A DNA stretch of 64,000 nucleotides from Bacteroides eggerthii. Its GTDB lineage: Bacteria; Bacteroidota; Bacteroidia; Bacteroidales; Bacteroidaceae. Shown here in pieces: positions 2,191 to 41,585 of this stretch. The stretch lies in the NCBI RefSeq assembly GCF_025146565.1, contig NZ_CP102258.1, positions 2,450,001 to 2,514,000 of the forward strand, given 5' to 3'. The notes beneath the pieces are model-generated. The model saw only the letters and a list, made by a program, of their open reading frames with translations, did not search any database and was not told where the DNA came from. Positions within the stretch are counted from its first letter, which is position 1. The number at the start of each line of letters is the position of its first letter. The translations under genes and the position numbers were made by a program.

Positions 2191-3720
2191 ATGAAACAGA
2201 CAACAAAAAACATCCTTGGAGTTGCAGCCGTTGTAATTCTTAGTTCAGGAGTGGCCGGTGTTACCACTTATAAGATGCTGAATAAGGAAAAACCTGCTAC
2301 ATTTAGCGAGTTGTTCGAACAGAACCCTAATAATTTACAGTTGGCTGCTTATAATGCAACGGATGCGCAGCCTGTCGATTTGACACAGGCGGCAGAGAAT
2401 TCGGTTCATGCTGTGGTACATATACGCGCTAAGCAGTTGAGCAAGACTCAAACCGTACAAGGCATGCCTGATATTTTTGATTTCTTCTTCGGTGATGGCC
2501 GCGGACAGCAGCGTCAGATACAGACCCAACCGCGTGTAGGCTTTGGTTCCGGTGTGATTATTTCTAAAGACGGTTATATCGTGACCAACAATCACGTGGT
2601 TGAAGGCGCCGATGAGATTACCGTAAAGCTGAATGACGACCGCGAACTGAAAGGACGGATCATCGGTACCGACCCTAGTACGGACCTTGCCCTGATTAAA
2701 ATAGAAGGTGATGATTTCCCCACAGTACCGGTAGGCAATTCCGACGAATTGAAAATTGGCGAATGGGTATTGGCGGTAGGTAATCCGTTCAACCTGAACT
2801 CCACCGTTACAGCCGGTATTGTGAGCGCGAAAGCTCGTGCCATCGGCACTACTGCATCCAATGGACAGGCTGCAAATATCCAGTCTTTCATTCAGACGGA
2901 TGCTGCCATCAATCAGGGTAACAGTGGTGGTGCATTGGTTAATGCGAGAGGTGAACTGGTAGGTATCAATGCTATGCTCTATTCACCGACAGGGGCCTAT
3001 TCCGGTTACGGTTTCGCAATTCCCACCAGCATCATGACAAAAGTTGTGGCTGATTTGAAACAGTTTGGTACAGTGCAACGCGCTTTGCTGGGCATCACCG
3101 GTACTACACTGGGCACGGACCTGCAAATGGACGAAAGACTGGCAGAGGAAATGAAGAAGAAGGCCGATGAACTTGGAGTGAAAGAAGGTGTATTGGTTGC
3201 TGAGGTTGTGGAAGGTGGTTCTGCTGCCGGAATATTGAAGTCGGATGACGTTATCATTGGTCTTGGCGGTAAGAAGGTGCATAAGTTCAGCGACCTGCAG
3301 GAGGCTTTGGCTAAACATCGCCCAGGTGACAAGGTGAAAGTCAAAGTGGTTCGCGACAAGAAGGAGAAGGAATTTGAGCTGACCTTGAAAAATTCTCAAG
3401 GCAATACGAAAGTTGTGAAAGATGCCGGAATGGAACTTCTGGGCGCAGCCTTCAAGCCTGTATCTTCTGAACTGAAGAGACAACTTAACCTGGGTTATGG
3501 TTTGGAAGTGACCGGAGTGTCCAACGGTAAAATGGCAGATGCCGGTATTCGCAAGGGATTTATCATCCTCAAGGCGAACAATGTGCAGATGAAGTCGGTG
3601 GAGGACTTGGAGAAAGTGCTGAAAGCTGCCACTCAGTCTCCCGATCAGGTATTGTTCATCACCGGTATGTTCCCATCGGGTAAGCGTGCAAGCTATGCGG
3701 TGGATTTAACTCAGGAATAA
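2191..3720 (+). CDS. htrA: HtrA/DegQ-family periplasmic serine protease
   Basis: Periplasmic quality-control protease and chaperone of 509 residues. An N-terminal hydrophobic segment (about residues 8-27) acts as signal or anchor. The trypsin-like domain has a complete triad: His135 in TNNHVV, Asp165 in STDLALIKI and Ser245 in GNSGGAL. Two PDZ domains follow, at about 300-390 and 415-500. This is the usual architecture and length for DegP/DegQ. The gene sits in its own unit: 237 bp separate it from the upstream gene, and a strong hairpin terminator follows. I see no consensus TAnnTTTG box in the upstream gap, which leaves room for a stress-type promoter, but none is identified. Confidence 0.96.
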   Translation: MKQTTKNILGVAAVVILSSGVAGVTTYKMLNKEKPATFSELFEQNPNNLQLAAYNATDAQPVDLTQAAENSVHAVVHIRAKQLSKTQTVQGMPDIFDFFFGDGRGQQRQIQTQPRVGFGSGVIISKDGYIVTNNHVVEGADEITVKLNDDRELKGRIIGTDPSTDLALIKIEGDDFPTVPVGNSDELKIGEWVLAVGNPFNLNSTVTAGIVSAKARAIGTTASNGQAANIQSFIQTDAAINQGNSGGALVNARGELVGINAMLYSPTGAYSGYGFAIPTSIMTKVVADLKQFGTVQRALLGITGTTLGTDLQMDERLAEEMKKKADELGVKEGVLVAEVVEGGSAAGILKSDDVIIGLGGKKVHKFSDLQEALAKHRPGDKVKVKVVRDKKEKEFELTLKNSQGNTKVVKDAGMELLGAAFKPVSSELKRQLNLGYGLEVTGVSNGKMADAGIRKGFIILKANNVQMKSVEDLEKVLKAATQSPDQVLFITGMFPSGKRASYAVDLTQE

Positions 3721-3772
3721 TCGAAACAGGTAAATAGGTAAGAAGATTGTAATATTAGCAAAGAAAGACGAA

Positions 3773-3815
3773 AAAGAGGGTGTTGGCAAATACTTGTCAA
3801 TACCCTCTTTGTTAT
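3773..3815 (+). terminator. Intrinsic terminator after htrA
   Basis: AAAGAGGGTGTTGGCAA (3773-3789) pairs with TTGTCAATACCCTCTTT (3794-3810): 17 pairs, two of them G-U, with a four-base loop and a short T-rich tail. It lies between htrA and the rpoD promoter. Confidence 0.8.
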
Positions 3816-3854
3816 GTAGTCAAGGTATAAATAAGGTGAAAAAGTTCAGGCAAG

Positions 3855-27186: not shown

Positions 27187-28107
27187 ATGAAACCTATTTT
27201 CAGACTGACTGCTATCGTAGCACTTCTCCTCATTTCCGTAGCTGTGCAGGCGCAGCGCAGGAACTCCCGTTACAATGAATACATCAAACAATATGCCCCC
27301 CTTGCCGTAGAGCAGATGAGGGAACACCGGATACCGGCCAGCATTACACTGGCGCAGGGGTTGCTGGAAAGTGGTGCCGGACAAAGCACGCTGGCGCGTA
27401 AAAGCAACAACCATTTCGGCATAAAATGTGGCAGTAACTGGCGCGGGCGCAGCGTGAGGCATGATGATGATGCACGCAACGAGTGTTTCCGCGCTTATCG
27501 CAATCCGAAAGACTCTTATGAAGACCATTCGCTTTTCCTGAAACGCGGTGCACGCTATGCTTTCTTGTTCAAACTGAAAATCACCGATTACAGAGGGTGG
27601 GCGCGCGGCCTGAAAAAAGCGGGATATGCCACAGATCCTTCCTATGCCAACCGCCTGATAACCATTATCGAGGATTATGACTTATATAAGTACGACACGC
27701 GCGGCCTGAGCAACCGGGAAGCCCGCAATCTGGAGAAGGAGTTGAAGAAGAAGCCTTGGCTTGCCAATCCGCATCAGGTGTATATTGCCAATGACATTGC
27801 CTATGTTGTGGCTCGTGACGGAGACACTTTCCAGTTCTTGGGCAAGGAGTTCGACATCAGCTGGCGGAAACTGGTGAAATATAATGACCTGCATAAAGAC
27901 TATACTTTGGAGGCCGGCGACATTATCTATCTGAAAGGAAAACGCAAGAAAGCCGCCAAGCCCTACACCGTTTATATCGTGAGAGACGGAGACTCCATGC
28001 ACTCCATTTCGCAGAAGTACGGCATCCGCCTGAAGAACCTGTATAAGATGAATCGGAAAGATGCGGAATATGTGCCGGAAGTGGGAGACAGATTGCGCTT
28101 GAGATAA
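27187..28107 (+). CDS. Exported glucosaminidase with two LysM domains
   Basis: Cell-wall hydrolase of 306 residues. The signal peptide ends at AVQAQ (about residue 22). The glucosaminidase domain (about 30-165) has the catalytic Glu in SITLAQGLLESGAGQSTLARKSNNHFGIKC. Two LysM peptidoglycan-binding modules follow (about 197-243, VARDGDTFQFLGKEFDISWRKLVKYNDL; about 257-305, YIVRDGDSMHSISQKYGIRLKNLYKMN). It would cleave the N-acetylglucosaminyl bond of murein in the periplasm during growth or division. It is monocistronic, divergent from cdd and followed by a large regulatory gap. Confidence 0.94.
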   Translation: MKPIFRLTAIVALLLISVAVQAQRRNSRYNEYIKQYAPLAVEQMREHRIPASITLAQGLLESGAGQSTLARKSNNHFGIKCGSNWRGRSVRHDDDARNECFRAYRNPKDSYEDHSLFLKRGARYAFLFKLKITDYRGWARGLKKAGYATDPSYANRLITIIEDYDLYKYDTRGLSNREARNLEKELKKKPWLANPHQVYIANDIAYVVARDGDTFQFLGKEFDISWRKLVKYNDLHKDYTLEAGDIIYLKGKRKKAAKPYTVYIVRDGDSMHSISQKYGIRLKNLYKMNRKDAEYVPEVGDRLRLR

Positions 28108-28160
28108 CAGGACGGCGGGCGGAATGAAAACCGTAACTTGCTGACTGGTTGAATGGTTGA

Positions 28161-28190
28161 TGTCCCACTCTGTTCCGTCGTTGTGGGACA
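28161..28190. promoter_or_regulatory. Inverted repeat TGTCCCAC/GTGGGACA
   Basis: Perfect 8-bp arms at 28161-28168 and 28183-28190 with a 14-base spacer. No T run follows, so it is unlikely to be a terminator for the glucosaminidase gene. It shares TGTCC/GGACA ends with the second dyad at 28311-28326 and sits just before the 22-bp repeats, which suggests a regulator-binding site. Confidence 0.5.
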
Positions 28191-28194
28191 TTCA

Positions 28195-28260
28195 TTCAGT
28201 CGTATAGGGAAATGCTTTCAGTCGTATTGGGAGGTGCGTTCAGTCGTATTGGGAAATCCG
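28195..28260 (+). repeat. Three contiguous 22-bp direct repeats (candidate enhancer)
   Basis: Units at 28195-28216, 28217-28238 and 28239-28260 share the core TTCAGTCGTATWGGGA followed by a variable six-base end. The period of 22 bp is about two helical turns, so equivalent bases face the same side of the DNA. The array lies 113-178 bp upstream of the sigma-54-like -24 element, the usual range for activator sites of that promoter class. Confidence 0.8.
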
Positions 28261-28306
28261 GTATCCATATACACGAAAAAAGTCAGGGATTTATCCGAAA
28301 ATGTAC

Positions 28307-28337
28307 AGAGTGTCCGAAAACGGACACTCTTCTTTTT
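28307..28337 (+). terminator. Hairpin with T-run, also a perfect TGTCC/GGACA dyad
   Basis: AGAGTGTCCG (28307-28316) and CGGACACTCT (28321-28330) form a 10-bp stem with an AAAA loop, followed by TCTTTTTT. It reads as an intrinsic terminator that insulates the transporter operon. The inner 16-bp palindrome TGTCCGAAAACGGACA could equally be an activator or repressor site, since it lies 45 bp before the -24 element. Confidence 0.65.
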
Positions 28338-28370
28338 TGCCTTCATGCTTGTTTTCAGTGGTTTACGCTT

Positions 28371-28388
28371 TTGGCACGAATTTCGCAA
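28371..28388 (+). promoter_or_regulatory. Sigma-54-type (-24/-12) promoter of the efflux operon
   Basis: TTGGCACGAATTTCGCAA fits the sigma-54 consensus TTGGCACG-N4-TTGCA. The invariant GG (28373-28374) and GC (28385-28386) are exactly ten bases apart. Transcription would start near 28398 and leave a leader of about 90 bases before the adaptor ATG at 28490. No TAnnTTTG box occurs in this gap. Bacteroides genomes encode RpoN, so such promoters are expected, but use of this one is inferred. Confidence 0.7.
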
Positions 28389-28489
28389 GTATCAGGGTGG
28401 GAAGCGTTGGTTGTCCGTTTCTGCAACAGAACGGGGCGGAGGTGCGACAACCGGCGAAGACATCAACCGATAAACAAAAAACAAGAGAT

Positions 28490-29737
28490 ATGGATAGAGA
28501 AATTCCGAAAGAGGTTCGTAACAAAGAACGTAATAAGAAAATCATTCGTTATGGCGGTATGGGTGCTGCGGGCATCGTTGTCGTCAGCCTGCTCATTTCG
28601 CTGATGCGTGCCGGAGTGAAAGAGAAAGATCTCGTGTTCTCACAGGTGAGCCGGGGCACGATCGAGGTCAGCGTGAGCGCTTCGGGAAAGGTGGTCCCGG
28701 CTTTCGAGGAGATCATCAATTCGCCCATCAGTACCCGCATCCTGGAAGTATATAAGAAAGGTGGAGACAGTGTGGACATAGGCACGCCCATCCTGAAGCT
28801 GGACTTGCAGAGCGCCGAGACCGACTACAAGCAGAAACTGGACGAGGAACAGATGCGCAGCTACAAATTGAAGCAGCTCAAGCTGGAGAACATGACCAAG
28901 CTGAATGACTTGCAGATGAAAGTGAAGGTTGCTGCCATGCAACTGAATCGCAAGAAAGTGGAGTTGCGCAATGAGCAATATCTCGACAGTCTCGGGTCCG
29001 GCACTACCGACAAGGTGCGTCAGGCGGAGCTGAGCTATAATGTGGCGGAGCTGGAATACGAACAACTGAAACAGCAGTATGCCAATGAGAAAGAAGTGCT
29101 GAATGCGGAATATCAGGTTCAGGAGTTGGATTTCAGTATTTTCAAGAAAACGCTGGCCGAAACGAAGCGTACATTGGACGATGCGCAGATCCGTTCGCCT
29201 CGGAAGGCTATTCTCACCTATATCAACAATCAGATCGGTGCGCAGGTGGCAGAGGGCTCGCAGATTGCCGTCATCTCCGATTTGAGCCATTTCAAGGTGG
29301 AGGGTGAGATAGCCGATACGTATGGCGATCGCGTATCGGCCGGCGGCAAGGCCGTTGTAAAGATTGGCAATGAAAAGCTGGAGGGCTCGGTCAGCAGTGT
29401 CACTCCGCTGTCCAAAAACGGCGTTATCTCCTTTACCGTACAACTGAATGAGGATAACAACCGCCGCCTCCGTTCGGGCTTGAAGACAGATGTCTATGTG
29501 ATGAACGCAGTGAAGGAGGATGTGATGCGCATAGCCAATGCCTCTTACTATGTGGGACGCGGGGAATATGAACTGTTTGTCCGCAATTCCGACAAGGAGA
29601 TTGTGAAGCGTAAAGTGCAGTTGGGCGACTCGAACTTTGAATTTGTAGAAGTGGTAGGCGGTTTGCAACCGGGCGATGAAGTGGTGGTGAGCGACATGAG
29701 CCAATACAAGAACAAGAATAAACTGAAACTGAAATGA
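28490..29737 (+). CDS. HlyD/RND-type periplasmic adaptor of an ABC efflux system
   Basis: Membrane-fusion protein of 415 residues that would connect the inner-membrane ABC permeases to an outer-membrane channel. One N-terminal membrane anchor lies at about residues 22-42 (GGMGAAGIVVVSLLISLM). It is followed by a barrel-sandwich (lipoyl-like) half motif (GTIEVSVSASGKVVPAFEE), a long coiled-coil hairpin (about 95-235, rich in Gln, Lys, Leu and Glu), the second half motif (AILTYINNQIGAQVAEGSQIAVI) and a beta-barrel domain. The ATG at 28490 was chosen because the frame upstream runs through the promoter region. It is the first gene of the unit that includes one ATPase and six permeases. Confidence 0.93.
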   Translation: MDREIPKEVRNKERNKKIIRYGGMGAAGIVVVSLLISLMRAGVKEKDLVFSQVSRGTIEVSVSASGKVVPAFEEIINSPISTRILEVYKKGGDSVDIGTPILKLDLQSAETDYKQKLDEEQMRSYKLKQLKLENMTKLNDLQMKVKVAAMQLNRKKVELRNEQYLDSLGSGTTDKVRQAELSYNVAELEYEQLKQQYANEKEVLNAEYQVQELDFSIFKKTLAETKRTLDDAQIRSPRKAILTYINNQIGAQVAEGSQIAVISDLSHFKVEGEIADTYGDRVSAGGKAVVKIGNEKLEGSVSSVTPLSKNGVISFTVQLNEDNNRRLRSGLKTDVYVMNAVKEDVMRIANASYYVGRGEYELFVRNSDKEIVKRKVQLGDSNFEFVEVVGGLQPGDEVVVSDMSQYKNKNKLKLK

Positions 29738-29804: not shown

Positions 29805-30470
29805 ATGATTAAGTTGACCGGCATCAATAAGATTTATCGTACTAACGAAATTGAAACCGTAGCATTGGAGAATGTAAACCTCGAAGTGAACAAAGGAGAA
29901 TTTTTGAGTATTATGGGCCCTTCAGGTTGCGGCAAATCTACTTTACTGAACATTATGGGCCTGCTGGATGCGCCTACCAGCGGTACGATTGAAATAGCCG
30001 GCACTAAGGTGGACGGCATGAAAGACAAAGAACTGGCAGCTTTCCGTAACCGGAAGCTGGGATTCGTGTTCCAGTCTTTCCATTTGATTAACTCATTGAA
30101 TGTACTGGACAATGTGGAGTTGCCCTTGCTGTATAGAAAGGTTTCGGCCAAGGAACGCCGCCGTCTGGCAGAGGAGGTGTTGCAGAAGGTGGGGCTGAGC
30201 CACCGTATGCGCCACATGCCGACACAGCTGTCCGGCGGTCAGTGCCAGCGTGTTGCCATTGCACGCGCCATCGTCGGTAATCCGGAGATAATACTCGCCG
30301 ATGAGCCCACCGGTAACCTGGATTCCAAAATGGGTGCGGAAGTGATGGAACTGCTCCATCAGTTGAATAAAGAAGACGGACGCACCATCGTGATGGTGAC
30401 CCATAACGAAGAACAAGCCAAACAAACCAGCCGCACCGTACGCTTCTTCGACGGCCGTCAGGTAGAATAA
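29805..30470 (+). CDS. MacB/LolD-type ABC transporter ATPase
   Basis: ATP-binding subunit of 221 residues. Walker A is GPSGCGKST, the Q-loop lies in LGFVFQSFHL, the signature is LSGGQCQRVAIARA, Walker B is IILADEPTG and the switch His is in MVTHNEEQ. The size and the GLLDAPTSGTIEIAG segment fit the MacB/LolD class, which drives FtsX-type permeases by mechanotransmission and not by classical channel transport. It is the only ATPase in the cluster, although six permease genes follow, so it probably serves several permease pairs. Confidence 0.95.
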   Translation: MIKLTGINKIYRTNEIETVALENVNLEVNKGEFLSIMGPSGCGKSTLLNIMGLLDAPTSGTIEIAGTKVDGMKDKELAAFRNRKLGFVFQSFHLINSLNVLDNVELPLLYRKVSAKERRRLAEEVLQKVGLSHRMRHMPTQLSGGQCQRVAIARAIVGNPEIILADEPTGNLDSKMGAEVMELLHQLNKEDGRTIVMVTHNEEQAKQTSRTVRFFDGRQVE

Positions 30471-30513: not shown

Positions 30514-31788
30514 ATGCAGACCATTCGTCAAGCCTTTATACTCTTACGGCAGAACCCTCTACTGAGCACCATATTCATATTGGGTACGGCATTTGCCATC
30601 ACCATGATTATGGCGATTGTGATTACTTGGCAGATGAAATATGCCGATATTGAGCCGGAAGTGAACCGCAGCCGCTCTCTCTATATAAGCAAGATGCATT
30701 TGCAGGGTAAGGAAAACAAAGGCTGGAATAATTATACAGCCTGTTCGCCGGCTTTCATGAAGGACTGTGTGCAGCCATTGCCCGAAGTAGAGGCCTGTAC
30801 GGCATTTGTTCCGGCATCGGTCGCTCTGGTTTCTATGCCCGACGGCACCAATGCGGTGAAAGTGGATGCCATGGAAACCGACCCGGGATTCTGGAAAGTG
30901 TTCCGGATGCAGTTTGTTGCAGGACGGGGATTTGATGATTCCGACCGGGGTGGCGATGGGTCCGCCATTGTCGTGGTTGCTTCTGTGGCGCGGGAACTGT
31001 TCGGCACGACGGATGCGGTGGGCAAGACGGTGCTGCTGAACCGTAACGAAGCGCGTATTTGCGGGGTGGTAAAGGATGTTTCGGTCATTGCGAAGGATGC
31101 TTATGCGCAAGTGTGGCGCATGTATCCTGCCAGTTTGCAGGATGTCACTTCCGTCCGGAGTTATGCCCAATCGCATACGGTGGTGGCGCTGGCACGTTCT
31201 TCCGGGGATATTCCGGCCATCAGGCAAGGAATAGCAAAACGGGTGAAAGACATCAATGCCGTACAGACTGAAATGCTGATGGACATCATGGAGCAGCCCG
31301 ATGAAATAGTGGCGCATGTCAATCATGTGTGGGCCAACATAGGACCGGATTTGCGGATGTTGTACATACAGTACCTTCTGGCATTGCTCATTGTTCTTTT
31401 AGTACCGTCGCTCAACCTGTGCGGCCTGAGCAACAGTCGTATGCAGCAACGCATCAGCGAGCTGGGCGTACGTAAGGCATTCGGAGCGACGCGCAGCGTA
31501 TTGATAAGGCAGATATTGAATGAAAACCTCGTACTGACCCTGATTGGTGGAGCAGTGGGGCTGGTGTTCAGCTATCTGGCAGTGTATGGCATGCGTACGT
31601 GGCTGTTCACCAATAATCAGAACATCGGTACTTCCGGCGATTTCGACCTGAGCATGTCGGTGCTGTTCAGCCCTACGGTGTTTTGCCTGGCATTTCTTTT
31701 CTGTCTGGTCATCAACCTGCTGAGCGCAGGCCTGCCTACGTGGCTTGCCGCACGACACACGATTGTGGATTCTTTGAACGATAAATAA
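30514..31788 (+). CDS. FtsX-type ABC permease, type A of pair 1
   Basis: Permease of 424 residues. One membrane helix lies near the N terminus (PLLSTIFILGTAFAITMIMAIVITW), followed by a MacB-type periplasmic domain (about 50-275) and an FtsX domain with three helices at the end. The FtsX coupling segment is ISELGVRKAFGATRSVLIRQIL. It resembles the proteins encoded at 33735 and 36331 (shared EPEVNRSRSLY start of the periplasmic domain, DDxFWKVFxF and LFGTTDAVGKTVLLN segments). These three form the A group. With the B-type gene immediately downstream it would build a heterodimer around the ATPase. Substrate unknown. Confidence 0.92.
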   Translation: MQTIRQAFILLRQNPLLSTIFILGTAFAITMIMAIVITWQMKYADIEPEVNRSRSLYISKMHLQGKENKGWNNYTACSPAFMKDCVQPLPEVEACTAFVPASVALVSMPDGTNAVKVDAMETDPGFWKVFRMQFVAGRGFDDSDRGGDGSAIVVVASVARELFGTTDAVGKTVLLNRNEARICGVVKDVSVIAKDAYAQVWRMYPASLQDVTSVRSYAQSHTVVALARSSGDIPAIRQGIAKRVKDINAVQTEMLMDIMEQPDEIVAHVNHVWANIGPDLRMLYIQYLLALLIVLLVPSLNLCGLSNSRMQQRISELGVRKAFGATRSVLIRQILNENLVLTLIGGAVGLVFSYLAVYGMRTWLFTNNQNIGTSGDFDLSMSVLFSPTVFCLAFLFCLVINLLSAGLPTWLAARHTIVDSLNDK

Positions 31789-31801
31789 AGCGAAATTGAT
31801 T

Positions 31802-33079
31802 ATGAAATTCATAGTACATAACTTACGTATGATTCGGGCGCGTCTCCGTAGTAACGGATGGGTGCTTGCAGAACTGTTTCTGGTGTTTATCGTGATGTGG
31901 TTTCTTTGCGATTCGCTGGGATGCCTGAAGTATACGTTCTATCGCCCGTTGGGGTACAACATAGACCATGTGTACCAGCTTTCAATGATTACGGGCGGTG
32001 AAAGCCGGGACAGCAGCATGACCAATGCGGATAAATATCTGAGCATCCTGCAGAAGCTCGAAAGGGAGCCGGCGGTTGAAGTGGCCGCCCTGTCGTATTG
32101 GAGTCTGCCGATGAGCGGCAATAATTCTTATAACTCGCTGGCTGTGCAGGATACCATCGGATGCGAACTGCGTATAATAAACGCTACCGGGGGATATACG
32201 CGGGTATTCCGCATGAAGGAAGATGCCAAACGTTCGTTTGCGGCAATGCCTGTGGGTAGTGATGTCACGTCCGGCAATTATGTGATGCTGAGCGAGGGTG
32301 CGGCCGACTATTATAAGGAAAGAGTACCCGGCTTCTCTTTGGATACTCCTTTGAACTGGTACGGAGATTCCACGAATGTGGTAACTCAGTGCGGTATGAT
32401 CGGCAGTTTCCGTTCTTATCGCTATGGGGCGGATGCAAAGTGGGTTTTCCGGAGAATTGACGAGAATGTGATACGGACCGAATTGCGGGATTATGGAGCG
32501 CAGATTGTTTTTCGTGTGAAGGAAAACATGGACTCTCCCGATTACCGGAGCAAGTTCCTGAAAGAGATAGCACCGCATCTGGACACCGACAATATGTTCA
32601 TAGCCGACGTCGTTCCTTATACGGAGCAGCAATATCAGTTTGAGGTGATGAAAGGCGATGTGGACAAGGTGAATACGCAAACGGTTGTGGTGCTGTTCCT
32701 GTTGGTGAATGTGTTTCTGGGGCTGATAGGTACTTTCTGGTTCCGTACCCGTCGCCGTCGCAATGAAATAGCTTTGCGGCTTGCCATGGGCAGCACGAAG
32801 AAACAGATATTCTGCCTGCTCATGGGAGAGGGATTGCTGTTGCTGACTCTTGTTGCGCTGCCCGCCATGCTTGTCTGCTATAATGTGGGCGTTGCCGAAT
32901 TTATAATGGGACATACGGAACTGATTACCACCTGGCCGGTGGAATGGAGCTTCCTGCGTTTCCTGCTGGGTTCGTTGGGTGCATGGCTGCTGATAGCGCT
33001 GATGGTGGTGACTGGAATATGGTTTCCGGCACGACAGGCTATCGACATACAGCCGGCAGAGGCGTTGCATGAAGAATAG
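31802..33079 (+). CDS. FtsX-type ABC permease, type B of pair 1
   Basis: Permease of 425 residues with the same four-helix MacB/FtsX layout but a distinct sequence class. The N-terminal helix is WVLAELFLVFIVMWFLC. The start of the FtsX domain is LVNVFLGLIGTFWFRTRRRRNEIALRLAMGSTKKQIF, and the C terminus is IDIQPAEALHEE. These marks recur at 35062 and 37612 (B group). The ATG at 31802 is preferred over a TTG two codons earlier. It starts 13 bp after the A1 stop. The periplasmic half is the least conserved part among the three B proteins, as expected if each pair has its own partner or cargo. Confidence 0.91.
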   Translation: MKFIVHNLRMIRARLRSNGWVLAELFLVFIVMWFLCDSLGCLKYTFYRPLGYNIDHVYQLSMITGGESRDSSMTNADKYLSILQKLEREPAVEVAALSYWSLPMSGNNSYNSLAVQDTIGCELRIINATGGYTRVFRMKEDAKRSFAAMPVGSDVTSGNYVMLSEGAADYYKERVPGFSLDTPLNWYGDSTNVVTQCGMIGSFRSYRYGADAKWVFRRIDENVIRTELRDYGAQIVFRVKENMDSPDYRSKFLKEIAPHLDTDNMFIADVVPYTEQQYQFEVMKGDVDKVNTQTVVVLFLLVNVFLGLIGTFWFRTRRRRNEIALRLAMGSTKKQIFCLLMGEGLLLLTLVALPAMLVCYNVGVAEFIMGHTELITTWPVEWSFLRFLLGSLGAWLLIALMVVTGIWFPARQAIDIQPAEALHEE

Positions 33080-33109: not shown

Positions 33110-33733
33110 ATGAGAACTGATGTAGCAGGTGTTATCATTGCATTGGTATTGGCCTTTGCAGGTATGCTGAGTGTTTGTGCACAAGATGCAAAAGAAAGTG
33201 AAGTGCGTAAAGTGGATGCTTTCTCGTCAATTGAGATAACCTCTGTGGGGACAATTCATTTTACACAGAGTGACACTTATTCTTTCAGGATTGAAGGCAG
33301 GGAGAAGTACGTGAAGAATACGGAAACCACAGTGAAGGACGGCCGTTTGCTGATAGGCTTCAAGGACAAGAAAAACAAGAGTAGGAGAAATCAGAAAGAC
33401 GGCGTGACTATCTGGATTTCGGCTCCCGACTTGAAGGAGGTGGAGTTTACCGGTGTAGGGGAATTCAATTGTGAGAAGCCCTTGAAACTCGATGAAGTGT
33501 CATTTGAGGTAAAAGGCGTGGGTGAAGTGAATGTTGCCGATTTGACGTGTAACGTGTTGAAAGTTGCTTTGCGCGGAGTAGGTAGCGCCGATATTCATGT
33601 AGTCTGCGATTATTTGTCTGCCCAAATGGGTGGTGTGGGCAGCGTCACTTTGAGCGGAAGCGCCGGACGCGCTGATATTTCCAAAGGAGGCATAGGAGGC
33701 GTAAATACAGATAATTTAAAAATAGGCCGTTGA
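33110..33733 (+). CDS. Exported DUF2807 (GIN-domain) beta-helix protein
   Basis: A 207-residue protein with a signal peptide (1-24, MLSVCAQ). The remainder is the DUF2807 head domain named as a putative autotransporter-adhesin GIN domain: repeated short strands with Gly turns (FSSIEITSVGTIHFTQ, EVEFTGVGEFNCEKP, SFEVKGVGEVNVADL, LRGVGSADIHV, QMGGVGSVTLSGSA). Such domains fold as a right-handed beta-helix on the cell envelope; their role is not established. It lies between permease pairs 1 and 2, one base before the A2 start, so it is firmly part of the operon and may be a cargo or sensor. Confidence 0.88.
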   Translation: MRTDVAGVIIALVLAFAGMLSVCAQDAKESEVRKVDAFSSIEITSVGTIHFTQSDTYSFRIEGREKYVKNTETTVKDGRLLIGFKDKKNKSRRNQKDGVTIWISAPDLKEVEFTGVGEFNCEKPLKLDEVSFEVKGVGEVNVADLTCNVLKVALRGVGSADIHVVCDYLSAQMGGVGSVTLSGSAGRADISKGGIGGVNTDNLKIGR

Positions 33734-33734
33734 G

Positions 33735-35027
33735 ATGATAAAGCAATATTTCATACAAGCATGGGCGCAACTTCGCCAGCAACCGCTGATTAGTGCGGTC
33801 AGTATAGCCGGTACTGCGCTTGCCATCTTCCTCATTATGCTGGTGGTGATGATGCAGCAGGTAAAGGTTGTCCCTTTTGCACCCGAAAGTAACCGTGACC
33901 GCTTCCTGCACGTCAAGTGGATGAGTATCTCCAACTCAAATTGGGGAGACGGCACAAGTAACGGACCGATGAGCGCACAGACTGCCCGCGAATGTTTCCA
34001 GTCGTTGAAGACACCGGAAGCCGTTACTATTTATACTGTTTTTCCTATATCCACTCCTGTATCTCTGCCGGGCAGTCCGGCGATCAGTGTGGACTTGCGA
34101 CAAACGGACGACATCTTTTGGCGCGTATTTGACTTCTCCTTTATCGATGGAAAGCCTTATGATAAAGCAACATTCGATGCAGGTCAACCGGTGGCTGTAC
34201 TTACGGAGAGTGTGGTGCGCAGCCTTTTCGGCACGACGGATGCCGTGGGGCGCGAGTTTCTTCTCAACCATGCGCCTTACCGCGTTGCCGGTGTCGTGAA
34301 AGATGTGTCTACGCTGGCCGACTGCGCTTACGGACAGGTATGGGTCCCGTATACTTCTACGGGAATGGATAAGGAGGCTTGGAACGACCGGCACATGGGA
34401 ATGATGAGTTGTACGATGTTGGCGCACAGCCGGGATGATTTTCCTGCTATCCGTCAGGAAGCGGAACGCCGTAAACTGGAATATAATACGCTCATCGGAA
34501 AGGACGGATGGGAACTGATTTACCGCAACCGCCCTTACGACCAGGAAAAAAATGCCATAGCTTTCGGCGCTAATATCGAGCCGGATGTGGATGCAGCCCG
34601 CCGCCAGCGGATTATGATCTTTGTTATTTTGCTGATAGTGCCTGCCATCAACCTTTCGAGCATGACGCAGAGCCGTTTGCGCCAGCGGGTGTCGGAGATC
34701 GGAGTACGTCGTGCTTTCGGAAGTACGCGTGCGGAACTGATGGGGCAGATTATAGCGGAGAATCTGGTGGTAACTTTATTGGCAGGTATCGTGGGCCTGC
34801 TGTTGAGTGTGGCTTTTGCATACATGGGCAACACTTTGCTTTTTGCACAGGAGTTCAGCCAGACTTTGAATCCGCCGGAAGTGGATGCGTCGATCCTGCT
34901 TCATGCTTCCACCTTTGCCTGGGCATTGCTCTTTTGTTTTGTCCTGAACCTGATGAGCAGCGGTTTCCCGGCATGGCGCGCTGCACGTATCGGAATAGTG
35001 AACGCATTGGGAGGGCGGTTGCACTAA
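33735..35027 (+). CDS. FtsX-type ABC permease, type A of pair 2
   Basis: Permease of 430 residues, second member of the A group. The N-terminal helix is PLISAVSIAGTALAIFLIMLVVM and the coupling segment is VSEIGVRRAFGSTRAELMGQII. The periplasmic domain shares FWRVFDFSFIDGKPYDKA and SLFGTTDAVGREFLLN with A1 and A3. The end (FPAWRAARIGIVNALGG) lines up with A3. The gene begins one base after the DUF2807 stop. Relatedness of the three A genes suggests tandem duplication of an A-B pair, now well diverged. Confidence 0.92.
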   Translation: MIKQYFIQAWAQLRQQPLISAVSIAGTALAIFLIMLVVMMQQVKVVPFAPESNRDRFLHVKWMSISNSNWGDGTSNGPMSAQTARECFQSLKTPEAVTIYTVFPISTPVSLPGSPAISVDLRQTDDIFWRVFDFSFIDGKPYDKATFDAGQPVAVLTESVVRSLFGTTDAVGREFLLNHAPYRVAGVVKDVSTLADCAYGQVWVPYTSTGMDKEAWNDRHMGMMSCTMLAHSRDDFPAIRQEAERRKLEYNTLIGKDGWELIYRNRPYDQEKNAIAFGANIEPDVDAARRQRIMIFVILLIVPAINLSSMTQSRLRQRVSEIGVRRAFGSTRAELMGQIIAENLVVTLLAGIVGLLLSVAFAYMGNTLLFAQEFSQTLNPPEVDASILLHASTFAWALLFCFVLNLMSSGFPAWRAARIGIVNALGGRLH

Positions 35028-35061
35028 ACACTTATGACTAACAATTAATCACAGAAAAAAA

Positions 35062-36300
35062 ATGACTAAGAAACTTTTAGTACAGATAAAGAATGAATGG
35101 CGCAATAACCTGTGGCTGGCTTTGGAACTGTTGGTGGTGAGTGTTGTGATGTGGTTTGTGGTGGATTACCTCTATACAGGTGCGGCTACCTATCTGGAGC
35201 CGAGGGGGTTCGACATCAGCCATTGCTACCTCATCGAAATGGGAAAGCTTACCGAGAAGAGTCCCGACTATCTCTCTGGCCAGACCGATGAGCAGGAGGA
35301 TGCCGATATTCTTGAGCTTGTGGACCGCCTGCGCCGCCGCCCTGAAATAGAGGCAGTAAGTCTTTCGCAAAACTCATATCCGTATAACGGCAGTAATTCT
35401 ACGGATCAGGTGCGTTATGATACATTGGTGGCCGATAATTGGACTATCCGCCGTATGGTGACTCCCGATTTTGTACGTGTATTCCGCTATCAGGGCGCAC
35501 GTGGTGAAACGCCCGAACAGCTTGCCGAGATGCTGGAAAGGGGGGATTTCCTTGCTTCCAACAATCTTTACAGGAAGTACAACCGTCCGATGACAGAGCT
35601 GGTGGGCAAGCAGTTTCAGCTTTTCGGTGATACTACGCAAACTTTCCGGTTGGGGGCAGCTTTGAAAGATGTACGTTACAGTGATTTCCAGCAAGCCCGT
35701 AATTCTTACACCTTTCTTTATAAGCTCGGTTGGTATGATCCGGGACTGGAGCTGTGCCTTCGTGTCCGGGCCAATCAAGACCATGATTTCATCCGGCGCT
35801 TGAAGGAAGACAGTGAGAAGCAGTTCCGTATCGGTAACATCTTTATCTCCGAAATACGTTCTTTTAAAGATATACGGCGTAACTACCAACAGGCGTGGAG
35901 CAATGATTTGCGTAATTACGTTATGGGAATGGGATTCCTGTTGCTGAATATTTTCTTGGGACTGCTTGGCACTTTCTGGTTCCGTACCCAGCAGCGCCGT
36001 TCGGAGATTGCATTGCATAAGGCGCATGGAGCTTCGGATATAAACGTTTTTATCCGTTTGGTCAGTGAAGGATTGCTTTTGCTGCTGCTTGTCACACCGA
36101 TAGCGTTCATTATCGACTACAATTTAGCAAATATGGAATTGAACTCATGGCGTAATGGTACAACCTTGGAATGGGGACGCTTGTTGCTCTGTGCTGCCAT
36201 CAGCTTTGTCCTTATAGGATTGATGATTGCCATAGGTATCAGCATTCCGGCACGCAAAGCCATGAAAGTACAGCCTGCCGAAGCGCTGCATGATGAATGA
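35062..36300 (+). CDS. FtsX-type ABC permease, type B of pair 2
   Basis: Permease of 412 residues, second member of the B group. The N-terminal helix is LWLALELLVVSVVMWFVVDYLY. The periplasmic part contains EIEAVSLSQNSYPYNGSNS, which is closely matched in B3 (GVEAVALSQNCFPYNEGSNS). The FtsX start is LLNIFLGLLGTFWFRTQQRRSEIALHKAHGAS, and the end is MKVQPAEALHDE. B2 and B3 are clearly closer to each other than to B1, so pairs 2 and 3 arose from the more recent duplication. Confidence 0.92.
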   Translation: MTKKLLVQIKNEWRNNLWLALELLVVSVVMWFVVDYLYTGAATYLEPRGFDISHCYLIEMGKLTEKSPDYLSGQTDEQEDADILELVDRLRRRPEIEAVSLSQNSYPYNGSNSTDQVRYDTLVADNWTIRRMVTPDFVRVFRYQGARGETPEQLAEMLERGDFLASNNLYRKYNRPMTELVGKQFQLFGDTTQTFRLGAALKDVRYSDFQQARNSYTFLYKLGWYDPGLELCLRVRANQDHDFIRRLKEDSEKQFRIGNIFISEIRSFKDIRRNYQQAWSNDLRNYVMGMGFLLLNIFLGLLGTFWFRTQQRRSEIALHKAHGASDINVFIRLVSEGLLLLLLVTPIAFIIDYNLANMELNSWRNGTTLEWGRLLLCAAISFVLIGLMIAIGISIPARKAMKVQPAEALHDE

Positions 36301-36330
36301 TTTTGAGGATATTAAACCGATATATTGAAT

Positions 36331-37611
36331 ATGATACGTCTTTATTTTCAACAAGCGCTGTATCATTTGCGTGAGAATCCTATCATAACGTGGGTTTCTG
36401 TATTGGGTACGGCATTGGCCATTTGCATGATTATGGTGCTTGTCATCACTTTTCAGGTGCGGCTCATAGATTGCGAACCCGAAGTGAACCGGAGCCGATC
36501 GTTATATGTGTCTGCCATGTCTGTCAAGAATAAGGGCGCGGGCGATAATGATTCGTCCAATGCCCGTATGTCAGTGCGTACAGGGCGAGAGTGCTTCAAG
36601 AACCTTACTACGGCTGAGGCGGTGACATTGATTTCCCTACCCGAAAAAGTGCGGGCTTCCTTACCGGCAGGCAACAAGGCCACTGTCGATATGGTTCAGA
36701 CAGATGATACATTCTGGCATATTTTCCATTTCCGTTTTCTCAGCGGAAAGGCATTTACGAAGGCCGATAGTGACGCAGGAGTGCCATGCGCTGTGTTGAG
36801 CTCGACGGTGGCACGCCGCCTGTTCGGAACGACGGATGTAGCGGGAAAGACAGTGCTGCTGAATCATGTGGAATACCGTATATCCGGCGTAGTGGCAGAT
36901 GTGTCTGTGCTTGCCACTTCTGCCTATGCACAGGTGTGGATACCTTATAATTCTACGGATATCTCCCGGCTGGCGTGGTGGGAAGATACTATGGGGCAGA
37001 TGAGGGCAGTCATTCTTGCATATTCCGCAGCCGATTTTCCGGCTATCCGTAAGGAGGTGGAGCAGCTCCGGCGTAAGTACAACGATGGGTTGCGCGACTC
37101 GGAAGTGTTCTACCGGGGGCAACCCGATGAACAGTTTGCCAATCTTTATCGTAAGTGGAGTGAAGTACCCGATACTAAGGCTGTTGTTATGCGCTATACG
37201 CTTGTCATTGCCATTCTTCTGATAGTTCCTGCTATCAATCTGAGCAGCATGACGCTCTCCCGTATGCGCAAGCGTATGGCAGAGATAGGCGTGCGCAAGG
37301 CGTTCGGGGCCACAGGAGGGGAATTGCGGCACCAGATATTCTTTGAGAATCTGCTGCTGACATTGTTTGCCGGGATATTGGGACTTGCATTGAGCTATGC
37401 CGCGACTTTCCTGTTGAACGGTTTCCTTTTCAACAACAGTGCCAATGCTTATTTCAGTGGTGAGACCACTTTGACGCCGGGTATGCTGCTTTCGCCCTGG
37501 GCTTTTCTTGCAGCTTTCGGCTTCTGCCTACTGATGAATATTCTGTCGGCAGGCATACCGGCATGGCGGGCTTCGAGAATGAATATAACGGATGCGATCA
37601 ATCAAAGGTAA
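36331..37611 (+). CDS. FtsX-type ABC permease, type A of pair 3
   Basis: Permease of 426 residues, third member of the A group. The N-terminal helix is PIITWVSVLGTALAICMIMVLVI, followed by EPEVNRSRSLYVS, identical in pattern to A1. The coupling segment is MAEIGVRKAFGATGGELRHQIF, and the end is IPAWRASRMNITDAIN. The ATG at 36331 is preferred over an upstream TTG at 36325. The stop codon is directly followed by the ATG of B3, with no gap. Confidence 0.91.
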   Translation: MIRLYFQQALYHLRENPIITWVSVLGTALAICMIMVLVITFQVRLIDCEPEVNRSRSLYVSAMSVKNKGAGDNDSSNARMSVRTGRECFKNLTTAEAVTLISLPEKVRASLPAGNKATVDMVQTDDTFWHIFHFRFLSGKAFTKADSDAGVPCAVLSSTVARRLFGTTDVAGKTVLLNHVEYRISGVVADVSVLATSAYAQVWIPYNSTDISRLAWWEDTMGQMRAVILAYSAADFPAIRKEVEQLRRKYNDGLRDSEVFYRGQPDEQFANLYRKWSEVPDTKAVVMRYTLVIAILLIVPAINLSSMTLSRMRKRMAEIGVRKAFGATGGELRHQIFFENLLLTLFAGILGLALSYAATFLLNGFLFNNSANAYFSGETTLTPGMLLSPWAFLAAFGFCLLMNILSAGIPAWRASRMNITDAINQR

Positions 37612-38889
37612 ATGAGGATCATGGGAACGATATTAAAACAAATAAGGAACGAGTGGAACAGTAACCTTTTTCTCTTTATGGAATTGCTGTTGGTTTTTGT
37701 CGTGTTGTGGTATATTGTGGACTGGACACTCGTCACCGCGCGTGTCTATCATGCTCCGATGGGATTTGATACAGAACATTGCTACAACATTGCTGTGGGT
37801 AAGCTGGGGGAGAATTCTCCTCTTTATAATCCGGAGTCTACTGTTGATGATGATATGGAAGACTTGCTCCGGCTTACGGACAGGTTGCGTCATTGCCCCG
37901 GCGTAGAGGCTGTTGCTCTTTCACAAAACTGCTTTCCCTATAATGAAGGCAGCAACAGCATTGAGTTGGGCATTGATTCTGTGCCTGTCAGTGCACGACT
38001 TCTTTGGGCGGATGCGGATTTCTTTCGTGTTTTCCGCTACTCTTTCACAGAGGAAGATGACTTTAATAAGGTAGAGGCTGCATTCCGGAACGATGAACTG
38101 GTGGTTTCTTCCAATCTTACCGAAGGACATCCTGAACTGGATGCGGGCAGTGCCGAGTCATTGCAGGGAAAGGAAGTATTGCTTTTGAACTATGGGCAAG
38201 ATGTCCGCCGGCGCATCGGTGCCGTAGGGACACCTGTGCGTTGGTCGCATTTTCAAACTTCGGCGCAGTGGGGAGGAGCTTTTGCCGCCCTTCCTCTCGA
38301 TGTGAAAAGATTGCGGAGCTTCGGTGATCCCCGTTATGTCACTGTCAGTTTGCGCGTTTCCGAGGATGCCGATAAGGGCTTTGCCGAAAAACTGATGGAC
38401 GATGCCGACCGTCTTTATCAGGTAGGTAACCTTTATTTGCTGGATATTACACCATTCGTCCACTTACGTGAGATCTGCGAGTTGGAGGATATGAACGAAT
38501 GGAAAACACAACTTTGTGTACTGGGATTCTTGTTGCTGAATATCTTTCTGGGCGTTATCGGAACATTCTGGTTTCGTACGCAACAGCGCCGTAAAGAGAT
38601 TGCCTTGAGGCTGGCAATGGGAAGCCCTCGACGGGGCATCTTTTCCTACCTTATGTATGAAGGGATACTGTTATTGACGTTGGCGGTTATACCGGCGACC
38701 GTCATTGCTTTCAATATTGGTTATGCCGAACTGGTGGACGTAGGCAGGATGCCTTTCGATACCGGACGTTTTCTGTCGGCGCTTGTTGTGACATGGATGC
38801 TGATGGCATTGATGATTGTTGCCGGCATTTGGTACCCCGCATATGGAGCGATGAGGGTGCATCCGGCAAAAGCATTGCATGATGAGTAA
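37612..38889 (+). CDS. FtsX-type ABC permease, type B of pair 3
   Basis: Permease of 425 residues, third member of the B group. The N-terminal helix is LFLFMELLLVFVVLWYIVDW. The FtsX start is LLNIFLGVIGTFWFRTQQRRKEIALRLAMGSPRRGIF, and the end is MRVHPAKALHDE. Its ATG immediately follows the A3 stop (TAAATG); a second in-frame ATG at 37621 is a possible start. It is the last transporter gene; a T-rich stretch and a new -7 box separate it from the histidine kinase gene. Confidence 0.91.
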   Translation: MRIMGTILKQIRNEWNSNLFLFMELLLVFVVLWYIVDWTLVTARVYHAPMGFDTEHCYNIAVGKLGENSPLYNPESTVDDDMEDLLRLTDRLRHCPGVEAVALSQNCFPYNEGSNSIELGIDSVPVSARLLWADADFFRVFRYSFTEEDDFNKVEAAFRNDELVVSSNLTEGHPELDAGSAESLQGKEVLLLNYGQDVRRRIGAVGTPVRWSHFQTSAQWGGAFAALPLDVKRLRSFGDPRYVTVSLRVSEDADKGFAEKLMDDADRLYQVGNLYLLDITPFVHLREICELEDMNEWKTQLCVLGFLLLNIFLGVIGTFWFRTQQRRKEIALRLAMGSPRRGIFSYLMYEGILLLTLAVIPATVIAFNIGYAELVDVGRMPFDTGRFLSALVVTWMLMALMIVAGIWYPAYGAMRVHPAKALHDE

Positions 38890-38931: not shown

Positions 38932-38939
38932 TATATTTG
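38932..38939 (+). promoter_or_regulatory. -7 box of the histidine kinase gene
   Basis: TATATTTG matches TAnnTTTG, 42 bases before the ATG at 38982. No good -33 TTTG is present at 19-21 bases. The kinase may therefore be expressed independently of the sigma-54-type operon. Confidence 0.5.
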
Positions 38940-38981
38940 TATGACTATAAAGTTCATGCAAACAAATCAAAAACGGGGAAA

Positions 38982-41585
38982 ATGAGGAAACACCTTTTCT
39001 TAATATGCTCATTAGCTTTCTTATGCTTGACACTGGGGACGCTTTCGGCTGAGGAGAAGACCTATAAAATACTTTTCATTCAGTCATATACCAATAACAC
39101 ACCTTGGCATAATGAACTTATTGCCGGTTTGCAGGAAGGCTTGGAGCAGGAGGGGGTAAAGGCCGATATCGTTACTGAATATTTGAATGCGGACTTTTGG
39201 ACTTTCGCTTCAGAGTGTGTCATTATGCGCCGTATATGCGAACGGGCCAGGTTGCGCAAAACAGACCTTATTGTGACTTCCAGCGATGAGGCTTTCTTTA
39301 CCTTGACCCATTGCGGTGATTCTTTGCCATATCAGGTGCCGGTAGTTGTTTCGGGCATCAAATATCCTGATGAAAAAGTGTTTGAAAAAATGCCGAATGT
39401 CTCCGGTTTCACCTCAAAAACGGATTTCACTATACTGCTGGAGGAAGCTATACGCATATTTCCCGGACGTAAGGAGATTGTCTGTCTGTCCGATAGCAGC
39501 TTTTTGAGCCTCAAAGGGGTAAGGGCAGTGGAAGAAGCCTGGATACCTTTCAAGGAGAAGCACCCTGAATACAGTTTGAGGAAACTGAATGTACAGGCAA
39601 AATCTATTAACTCCATTATTACATCCATTTGTTATGATTATAACGCCTATAAGTATATTGTCATTGCCCCTAAATGGATTCCTTTTCTTTCTTTAAAGTT
39701 GAAAGCCCCTACATTTGCCAATCAAAATCTGGCAATGACGAACGGGGTCCTGTGCGTATATGATGTGGAACCGGCGACAGATACTTATGCCGCGGGCAGG
39801 CAGGCGGCAAGTATCTTGAAAGGAGATTTTTCTGTTTCATACGGAGTGAAGAATCTGGATGGCAAGCTGTTGTTCGATTATAAGCAGCTGGGCTTTTTTC
39901 ATGTAGACGTGGAGAGCGTCGAAGAACAGGGAAGCATTTTGAATATTCCCTTAATGGACCGTTATAAGGTTTGGTTCATTCTTTTCTACTCGGTGACAGT
40001 GGGTGCGTTGGTGGTTCTTGTAGTCTGGCTTTACCGGAGCAACCGGCACGAATTACGTAAGCGCATACAGGCGCAGACCCGTTTGATGATACAGCAACGC
40101 TTGGTTGAACAACGGGATGAATTCGATAAAATGTTCTGTTCTATCCGCGACGGGTTGATAACGTATGATACGGAAATGCACATACATTTCGTCAATCGCG
40201 CTTTGGCGGAAATGCTGGGACTGTCTTCTGATACATACATGGCGCGTTCGTATGAAGGGCAGGTTGCCGGTTCCATTTTTCATATCTATATGAATGGTGA
40301 GAATATCTTGCCGACTCTTCTGGAACAGGTTGTCCGGGATAAGAAACCTGTCGTTATACCCGAAAAAGCTTTCATGCAGGAGAATGTGAAAGGCACTTAT
40401 TTCCCGGTTTCGGGCGAGGTAGTGCCCATTTTTGCAAAAGACAAACTGACGGGTATGGCAATCGTTTGCCGTAATATATCAGAGGATGAGATGCAGAGGC
40501 GTTTTTTCGGTATGGCTATCGAGGAGAGTTCCATTTATCCATGGCAGTATAATACCCGTCTGAAATGTTTCCATTTCCCCGTAGGGTTGTTGAAGCGTTT
40601 TAATTACAGCGACCATACGGGGTATATTTCGAGGGAGGAGCTGGACAGGGTTATTCACCCCGAAGATCTGCTTCGTATACGCAAGCATTTTGATAGCATT
40701 ATATTGGGACGTGAACCTAATTCCCGTATGAGTTTTCGTTTGCAGAATACAGCCGGCGGGTATGAATGGTGGGAATTCCGCAGTACCGCATACGAAGGAC
40801 TGACGGCAGACATCCCTTACATGGTGTTAGGCGTATGTCAAAGCATTCAAAGGTATAAAAACACCGAGGACGAACTTATTGCGGCCCGCGATAAGGCTTT
40901 GCAGGCTGACAAGCTGAAATCGGCGTTTCTTGCCAATATGAGCCATGAGATACGCACGCCGTTGAATGCGATAGTGGGCTTCTCTGATCTGCTGAAAGAC
41001 TTGGAAGGTTTCTCGTCGGAGGAAGTGCAGCAGTTTGTGGAAACGATCAATATCAACTGTACATTGTTGCTGGCATTGATGAACGATATTCTGGATCTTT
41101 CACGTATAGAGTCGGGGACAATGGACTTCCGCTTCTCCTCTTATAATCTTACATTTATCATGCAGCAGGTCTACGACTCCCAAAGGTTGAGCATGCCGCA
41201 AGGGGTGGAATTGCGCACCGACTTTCCGGAAGGTACAGGAAAATCCATGATTACGGATTCCGTACGTTTGAAGCAGGTTGTGAATAATCTGATTAATAAC
41301 GCCAAGAAGTTTACTACAAAGGGGTATATTCTTTTGGGGTATCGGGTAGAGGATTCCGGGCATACTGTCATTTTTGTGGAAGATACCGGATCCGGTATTT
41401 CCGATGAGAATCTGGGGCATATCTTCGAACGTTTTTATAAGGCGGACAACTTTACTCAAGGCGCCGGTTTGGGATTGAGCATTTGCCAGACTATTGTAGA
41501 ACGTCTGAATGGCACTATAACAGTAACTTCAAAGCTGGGTAAAGGAACCCACTTTGAAGTCAGAATAAGTGATAAAGCAATATAG
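38982..41585 (+). CDS. Sensor histidine kinase with periplasmic binding-protein domain and PAS domains
   Basis: Membrane sensor of 867 residues. A signal peptide (1-24) is followed by a type 1 periplasmic-binding-like domain (about 28-310, YKILFIQSYTNNTPWHNELIAGLQEGL), as in ABC-substrate-binding sensors. A membrane helix follows (about 335-358, WFILFYSVTVGALVVLVVWLY), then a coiled coil, two PAS-type domains (about 385-505 and 515-630), HisKA with phospho-acceptor His655 in ANMSHEIRTPLNAIVGFS, and the HATPase domain (NNLINNAKKFT, DTGSGISDENLG, GLGLSICQ). No receiver domain is attached and no response regulator gene follows; the next gene is convergent. The start at 38982 is preferred because the frame upstream overlaps the -7 box. 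Confidence 0.93.
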   Translation: MRKHLFLICSLAFLCLTLGTLSAEEKTYKILFIQSYTNNTPWHNELIAGLQEGLEQEGVKADIVTEYLNADFWTFASECVIMRRICERARLRKTDLIVTSSDEAFFTLTHCGDSLPYQVPVVVSGIKYPDEKVFEKMPNVSGFTSKTDFTILLEEAIRIFPGRKEIVCLSDSSFLSLKGVRAVEEAWIPFKEKHPEYSLRKLNVQAKSINSIITSICYDYNAYKYIVIAPKWIPFLSLKLKAPTFANQNLAMTNGVLCVYDVEPATDTYAAGRQAASILKGDFSVSYGVKNLDGKLLFDYKQLGFFHVDVESVEEQGSILNIPLMDRYKVWFILFYSVTVGALVVLVVWLYRSNRHELRKRIQAQTRLMIQQRLVEQRDEFDKMFCSIRDGLITYDTEMHIHFVNRALAEMLGLSSDTYMARSYEGQVAGSIFHIYMNGENILPTLLEQVVRDKKPVVIPEKAFMQENVKGTYFPVSGEVVPIFAKDKLTGMAIVCRNISEDEMQRRFFGMAIEESSIYPWQYNTRLKCFHFPVGLLKRFNYSDHTGYISREELDRVIHPEDLLRIRKHFDSIILGREPNSRMSFRLQNTAGGYEWWEFRSTAYEGLTADIPYMVLGVCQSIQRYKNTEDELIAARDKALQADKLKSAFLANMSHEIRTPLNAIVGFSDLLKDLEGFSSEEVQQFVETININCTLLLALMNDILDLSRIESGTMDFRFSSYNLTFIMQQVYDSQRLSMPQGVELRTDFPEGTGKSMITDSVRLKQVVNNLINNAKKFTTKGYILLGYRVEDSGHTVIFVEDTGSGISDENLGHIFERFYKADNFTQGAGLGLSICQTIVERLNGTITVTSKLGKGTHFEVRISDKAI

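Follow-up and report, generated by a model that had tools for sequence, protein, structure and literature searches.

Enhancer-dependent sigma-54 promoters with an IHF site are known from the nifH/glnA type, and BceRS-BceAB and Lia are envelope-stress modules. FtsX-like permeases of FtsX/MacB-type ABC systems in Bacteroidia were predicted to be under sigma-54 control, according to the available part of PMC12316311, which was the only relevant report on this regulon in a literature search that was light on subscription journals. Tandem repeats of 41, 23 and 22 nt have been reported for Porphyromonas gingivalis in the accessible text of PMC4596501. This indicates that short arrays of fixed unit length have some precedent in the order.

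The DNA analyzed here (the window) comprises 64,000 nucleotides and corresponds to positions 2450001-2514000 of the 4.2-Mb genome of Bacteroides eggerthii, which forms one contig. A run of exporter genes on the forward strand encodes a periplasmic adaptor (28490..29737, identified by domain matches to HlyD_3 and HlyD_D23), an ABC ATPase (29805..30470), two FtsX permeases (30514..33079, the first with MacB_PCD), a DUF2807 protein within the run (33110..33733), four more FtsX-type permeases (33735..38889, with 36325-37611 outside the Pfam scan) and, as its last member, a large PAS histidine kinase without a receiver domain (38937..41585). This kinase shares 48% identity with its counterpart at the equivalent place in locus L307, and the adaptor shares 96-97% identity with the adaptors of Bacteroides propionicigenes, B. 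clarus and B. gallinarum. A glucosaminidase/LysM gene (27187-28107) is the upstream neighbor of the adaptor gene. The gap between the two genes contains first a hairpin leader and a 22-bp array. Two palindromic sites follow, the weak one before the strong one, and then come an IHF-like box and a -24/-12 promoter. Rfam gave no match up to E 5 at 27900-28600, so that a known RNA element was rejected for this interval.

Probable sigma-54 promoter and palindrome upstream of the exporter operon

The sigma-54-type -24/-12 element TTGGCACGAATTTCGCA is located on the forward strand at 28371-28387, with a predicted transcription start near 28397-28398. It reads TTGGCACG-N4-TCGCA and places GG (28373-28374) and GC (28385-28386) ten bases apart, as the first-pass annotation had described. 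The ordinary TAnnTTTG box is lacking, as was also claimed there; none was detected on the forward strand of 28108-28489 with one mismatch allowed. The element is one mismatch off TTGGCACGNNNNTTGCA, and its -12 part (TCGCA) deviates from the consensus. By itself the promoter-like match could be due to chance. The window contains 23 matches to the -24/-12 pattern with up to three mismatches versus 22.7 expected, and a second match with one mismatch is found at 21631. The match gains its weight because it is conserved across orthologous loci, where a palindrome of the form TGTYCG-N4-CGRACA is followed by TGGCA exactly 60-61 bp further on in 76 of the 80 named loci. An rpoN gene is present in the genome (PF04552 at 350717-351190, E 3.8e-49). 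Judged by this conservation, a sigma-54 promoter is very probable at 28371-28387, and the proposal that the exporter operon is transcribed from a promoter of this type is supported by the comparison.

The perfect palindrome GAGTGTCCGAAAACGGACACTC at 28308-28329, which lies between the repeats and the promoter, is not mentioned in the first-pass annotation. The main candidate activator site of the enhancer type, TGTCCGAAAACGGACA (28311..28326, forward strand), is positioned 61 bp before TGGCA, and a weaker second site of the activator type, TATCCGAAAATGTACA (28292..28307, forward strand), falls in a conserved block and is found 19 bp before the main palindrome. If up to three mismatches to TGTCCG-N4-CGGACA are allowed, a palindrome occurs 35-94 bp before TGGCA in 79 of the 80 named orthologous loci (raw counts); the sole locus without it, L179, holds just 110 bp of upstream sequence. 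The spacing between palindrome and TGGCA is 61 bp in 51 loci, 60 bp in 21 and 79 bp in four, whereas 59, 63 and 85 bp occur once each. The second, weaker copy is located at -19 in 46 of 78 loci and at -20 in eight (raw counts, with up to 5 of 12 mismatches). The IHF-like box of the window, TTTCAGTGGTTTA (28353..28365, forward strand), shows two mismatches to WATCAANNNNTTR and is weak by itself (shuffled null 21.5%). Among 78 orthologous loci, WATCAANNNNTTR was matched with 0, 1, 2, 3 and 4 mismatches in 12, 33, 25, 6 and 2 cases, respectively. Matches with at most one mismatch thus occur in 45 of 78 loci versus 2.2% in composition-shuffled spacers, and the box sits at one fixed offset between palindrome and promoter in 68 of 78. 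Comparison of the loci at the sequence level bears out the predicted promoter, the palindrome, their fixed spacing and the IHF-like box.

The palindrome forms a stem of ten pairs followed by a T-rich tail, which resembles a terminator on the forward strand, and the hairpin is stable (z -3.70 versus shuffles). A T run follows it in 57 of 79 orthologous loci. These features argue for a reading in which the palindrome acts solely as an intrinsic terminator, for the glucosaminidase gene that lies upstream, and the neighboring promoter match arose by chance. However, the distance to TGGCA is fixed, the T run is missing from 22 of the 79 loci, and the palindrome also occurs before tolC, where the copy of the same genome is followed by CCCCCTTGTG and no T run. 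This makes the reading as a terminator only very unlikely. As the spacing to TGGCA is fixed across orthologous loci, the palindrome at 28311-28326 and not the repeats is most likely the activator site. Due to its terminator-like structure and the T run in most of the loci it may also end the upstream transcript, and a function as both activator site and terminator appears most likely.

The tolC operon and the candidate activator

Perfect palindromes are present at three places of the genome, namely at the exporter promoter, at 182174 and at 3497555. The copy at 182174 was rejected as a target; it is located inside a long open frame, which by eye we take to be carbamoyl-phosphate synthase, and no promoter with up to two mismatches lies nearby. 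The copy at 3497555, with CTTGGCACACTCTTTGT behind it, precedes the genes for TolC, an NtrC-type regulator and a kinase, which form an operon at about 3493069-3497476, approximately 1.02 Mb from the exporter. The joint pattern of palindrome plus promoter matches the genome exactly twice, at the exporter operon and at this tolC operon. With one mismatch allowed, 17 palindromes were found in the genome, and two of the 15 examined had a promoter with up to two mismatches 20-219 bp further on; such a promoter is expected by chance in 5.8% of random 200-bp one-strand stretches. The joint pattern was detected in 30 of 60 genomes of the genus versus 0 of 60 for the backward control, but the half of the genomes without the strict joint pattern counts against the proposed regulon.

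The tolC-linked regulator possesses Response_reg, Sigma54_activat and Fis-type HTH domains. Its loop reads GAFTDA, whereas GAFTGA is the loop motif of NtrC-type activators. The tolC-linked kinase (L083, 6070-7386) shows two membrane spans with few residues between them, as read from its sequence, a layout that presumably corresponds to that of intramembrane-sensing kinases. The regulator is most likely the activator of the exporter operon, because the promoter of its own operon carries the same palindrome. The genome encodes eight strong Sigma54_activat proteins, so that the seven besides the tolC-linked regulator are further candidates, and promoter and palindrome could work as proposed with one of these as the activator. 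This is unlikely, as the palindrome precedes the very operon that encodes the tolC-linked regulator, and this regulator neighbors the exporter in genomes G002 and G032 and in three loci of other genera.

In both of these Bacteroides genomes, the tolC-regulator-kinase operon adjoins the exporter. G002 carries the adaptor, ATPase, two FtsX, tolC, regulator and kinase genes in sequence behind one palindrome-promoter. In G032, an exporter run with a large kinase (48% identical to that of the window) is followed by a second palindrome-promoter and then by tolC, regulator and kinase. The loci L244, L245 and L248 from other genera harbor tolC, adaptor, regulator and kinase in one cluster, and L244 encodes, next to its adaptor, a regulator that shares 59% identity with the tolC-linked regulator of B. 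eggerthii. L246 and L247 contain tolC and adaptor without adjoining regulator and kinase, and a palindrome with up to one mismatch was not found in the five stretches L244-L248. Among the 30 tolC loci examined, out of 47 matches in the 60 genus genomes, 24 possess the palindrome-promoter pair, with a spacing of 46-47, 61 or 69-70 bp; beyond these 24, the pair also occurs at tolC in G032 and G075. No pair was seen at L236, L237, L240 and L243 of the 30. The suggested connection of the exporter to an NtrC-family two-component pathway is supported by comparison, namely by the shared palindrome-promoter and by the gene linkage in relatives.

Thirty loci with the joint pattern were classed, one per row, with the gene classes outside the Pfam check judged by eye. 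Seventeen of them lie before an adaptor gene, four before tolC, five before DUF2807-like genes, two before DUF3836 genes and one before an FtsX-like gene, and one has no reading frame in reach. The DUF2807-like genes belong to other Bacteroides (L334, L320, L329, L338 and L340), and DUF2807 and DUF4097 were confirmed in L334, the one that was Pfam-checked. Both DUF3836 genes (L339 and L341) were Pfam-checked. The DUF2807 and DUF3836 genes would represent further targets in relatives.

We consider it likely, with good confidence, that these elements constitute one circuit. The region 28292-28387 would be a compact sigma-54 control region that drives the adaptor-ATPase-FtsX operon. One strong and one weak site would bind an NtrC-type activator, most likely the response regulator of the distant tolC-regulator-kinase operon, and the IHF-like site would bend the DNA. 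Because the palindrome is common to the promoters of both operons, exporter and outer-membrane channel would be co-induced as one split regulon, although their genes are unlinked. Due to its two spans with a very short loop on the outside, the signal perceived by the tolC-linked kinase probably comes from the membrane or from the exporter. The 22-bp array would be a dispersed intergenic repeat outside the control of the exporter. Linkage of the genes in relatives emerges directly from the comparison; binding of the regulator, activation and the signal are what we infer.

The 22-bp array and its periodicity

The tandem array occupies 28173-28260 on the forward strand and consists of four units, the first of which is diverged. 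The three 22-bp units at 28195-28260 that had been noted before were recovered, with the core TTCAGTCGTATWGGGA at 28195, 28217 and 28239, and the additional diverged unit is located at 28173. A repeat-element leader occupies 28133..28168 on the forward strand, and its end contributes the left arm to the hairpin ATGTCCCAC / GTGGGACAT (28160-28191, z -4.09 versus shuffles). With up to three mismatches the core matches five times in the window, a number reached by 0 of 100 shuffles.

In the first-pass annotation, the three units upstream of the sigma-54 promoter were read as sites for activator oligomers, which would stack on a single face of the helix. Their position 113-178 bp upstream and their two-turn spacing fit this view in this one genome. 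However, absence of the repeats from orthologous loci had been set beforehand as the observation that speaks against it, and the units occur in 0 of the 80 named orthologous loci (450 bp upstream searched; 110 bp for L179). They are also absent from L045-L056. The core was further expected beside other sigma-54 promoters of the genome, but none of the five other arrays lies near a promoter or a palindrome with up to one mismatch. Two of the five are near a promoter-like match with two mismatches, which occurs by chance in 28% of such stretches. In addition, the density of 22-bp arrays before the adaptor gene, with 11 in 18.8 kb (0.58 per kb), is not raised relative to the remaining intergenic DNA of these loci, with 34 in 64.1 kb (0.53 per kb). 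The role as activator sites was therefore rejected, based on the orthologous loci, the lack of local enrichment and the other arrays without a palindrome-promoter pair, and we regard it as hardly credible. As their density is not higher before the adaptor gene, the arrays characterize these genomes in general.

The array might nevertheless be functional for this operon, unlike in relatives, for example by RNA structure or bidirectional promoter activity. The hairpin leader, a further period-22 array within 700 bp upstream in 14 of the 80 orthologous loci, and the promoter elements contained in BrickBuilt segments of P. gingivalis (as given in the available text of PMC4596501) are in favor of such a function. 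However, the unit sequences at the adaptor position differ between species, the density of arrays is not raised there, and the fold of the 141-nt array is only slightly better than that of shuffles (z -1.64). Thus a function specific to this operon is rather unlikely. B. propionicigenes and B. clarus harbor a period-22 array at the equivalent spot, with a different unit.

The repeats look like a dispersed intergenic family that is apart from the promoter switch. The core is found in tandem at six places of the genome beside unrelated genes, and, judged from the frame lists, all six arrays fall between open frames. Genome-wide, the core matches 37 times with up to two mismatches versus eight times for the backward control, and pairs of units were detected in 9 of 60 genus genomes, but not for the backward control. 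A leader resembling that of the window accompanies the array at genome position 809344-809410 as well as arrays in two other genomes, and leaders are common to some arrays in three genomes. Other units form period-22 arrays in the same genome (L082 8670-8788, L084 11218-11290 and L085 10181-10223).

The array of the window is one instance of a 22-bp periodicity. Near-repeats in the 80 named loci (698 kb) amount to 47 at lag 22, with echoes at 44 (32) and 66 (13), versus 13 at lag 21 and 12 at lag 23; block shuffling left none at lag 22. The 47 lag-22 arrays represent 39 unit families and are spread over 36 loci, and 45 of them are located outside open frames, as defined by a simple longest-frame script rather than a gene finder, whereas non-frame DNA makes up 12.7% of the total. 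Perfect arms of at least six occur in 20 of 45 arrays versus 14.5% of 1170 other intergenic 44-mers. The lag-22 count was 22 in 20 stretches of 20 kb from the genus, eight in 20 from other genera of the family (lag 21 there: ten), zero in seven from other families of the class and one in 13 from other classes; these stretches were picked non-randomly around tolC, adaptor-like or rpoN genes, and those of B. eggerthii partly for their arrays. Tandem periodicity of 22 bp with unrelated, often palindromic units was seen across L104-L183, L292-L311 and L252-L291. In L186, L188, L190, L191, L196, L206 and L210 a second subtype is present, which reads TTCAGTCGTATAGTGA or TTCAGTCGTATACTGA and has palindromic linkers, for example TGAATGCCATTCA, giving two symmetry centers about 11 bp apart. 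L137 contains about eight copies of a 41-bp unit before the adaptor gene (3494-3839).

We tentatively propose, as a possibility held with less than even confidence, that intergenic DNA of Bacteroides grows through a process that advances in constant steps of 22 bp and could act on almost any, preferably palindromic, local sequence, or that selection for protein binding every two helical turns maintains the period. The existence of arrays at lags 21 and 23 and the lag-22 count in other genera of the family, which is not above that of lag 21, speak against such a step. A 22-bp repeat periodicity in Bacteroides was not described in the literature searched, in which subscription journals were thinly covered. 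The repeats raise the question of why the step in Bacteroides intergenic DNA is exactly 22 bp although the units are unrelated.

Comparison with known systems

The control region resembles nifH/glnA-type promoters in its -24/-12 element, the palindromic sites upstream and the IHF-like box between them. It differs in that activator site and promoter keep a nearly constant distance of 60-61 bp across the genus and in that the putative activator is encoded in an unlinked channel operon of the same genome. As in the BceRS-BceAB and Lia modules, an FtsX-type exporter would here be paired with a short-loop kinase, and a toastrack-type protein (DUF2807/DUF4097) belongs to the predicted regulon of some relatives here. 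Unlike in these modules, an NtrC-type sigma-54 activator and a TolC channel would be involved.

The predicted sigma-54 regulon of Bacteroidia contains the same transporter class, but the accessible text of PMC12316311 names no activator, activator site or IHF box, all three of which are proposed here. In the literature searched, which included few subscription journals, the regulator and its site were not described for this operon, nor was the IHF-like box. The analysis would turn a computed association of sigma-54 with FtsX into a concrete, testable circuit in a dominant gut genus, which comprises an activator gene with its 16-bp site as well as a bend site and a promoter. Exporter and channel, although unlinked, would both belong to one regulon.

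The nearest known relative of the 22-bp arrays is BrickBuilt of P. gingivalis. According to the available part of PMC4596501, this MITE/minisatellite shares with the arrays described here the spacer-free, imperfect tandem units, the intergenic location and the occurrence at many loci. BrickBuilt elements have a shared leader and a tail, with inverted repeats at the termini, and a leader is common to some of the arrays here. The unit measures 22 bp here versus 23 nt in BrickBuilt, and unlike in BrickBuilt, as far as it is characterized in that text, the arrays of Bacteroides consist of unrelated units in different loci.
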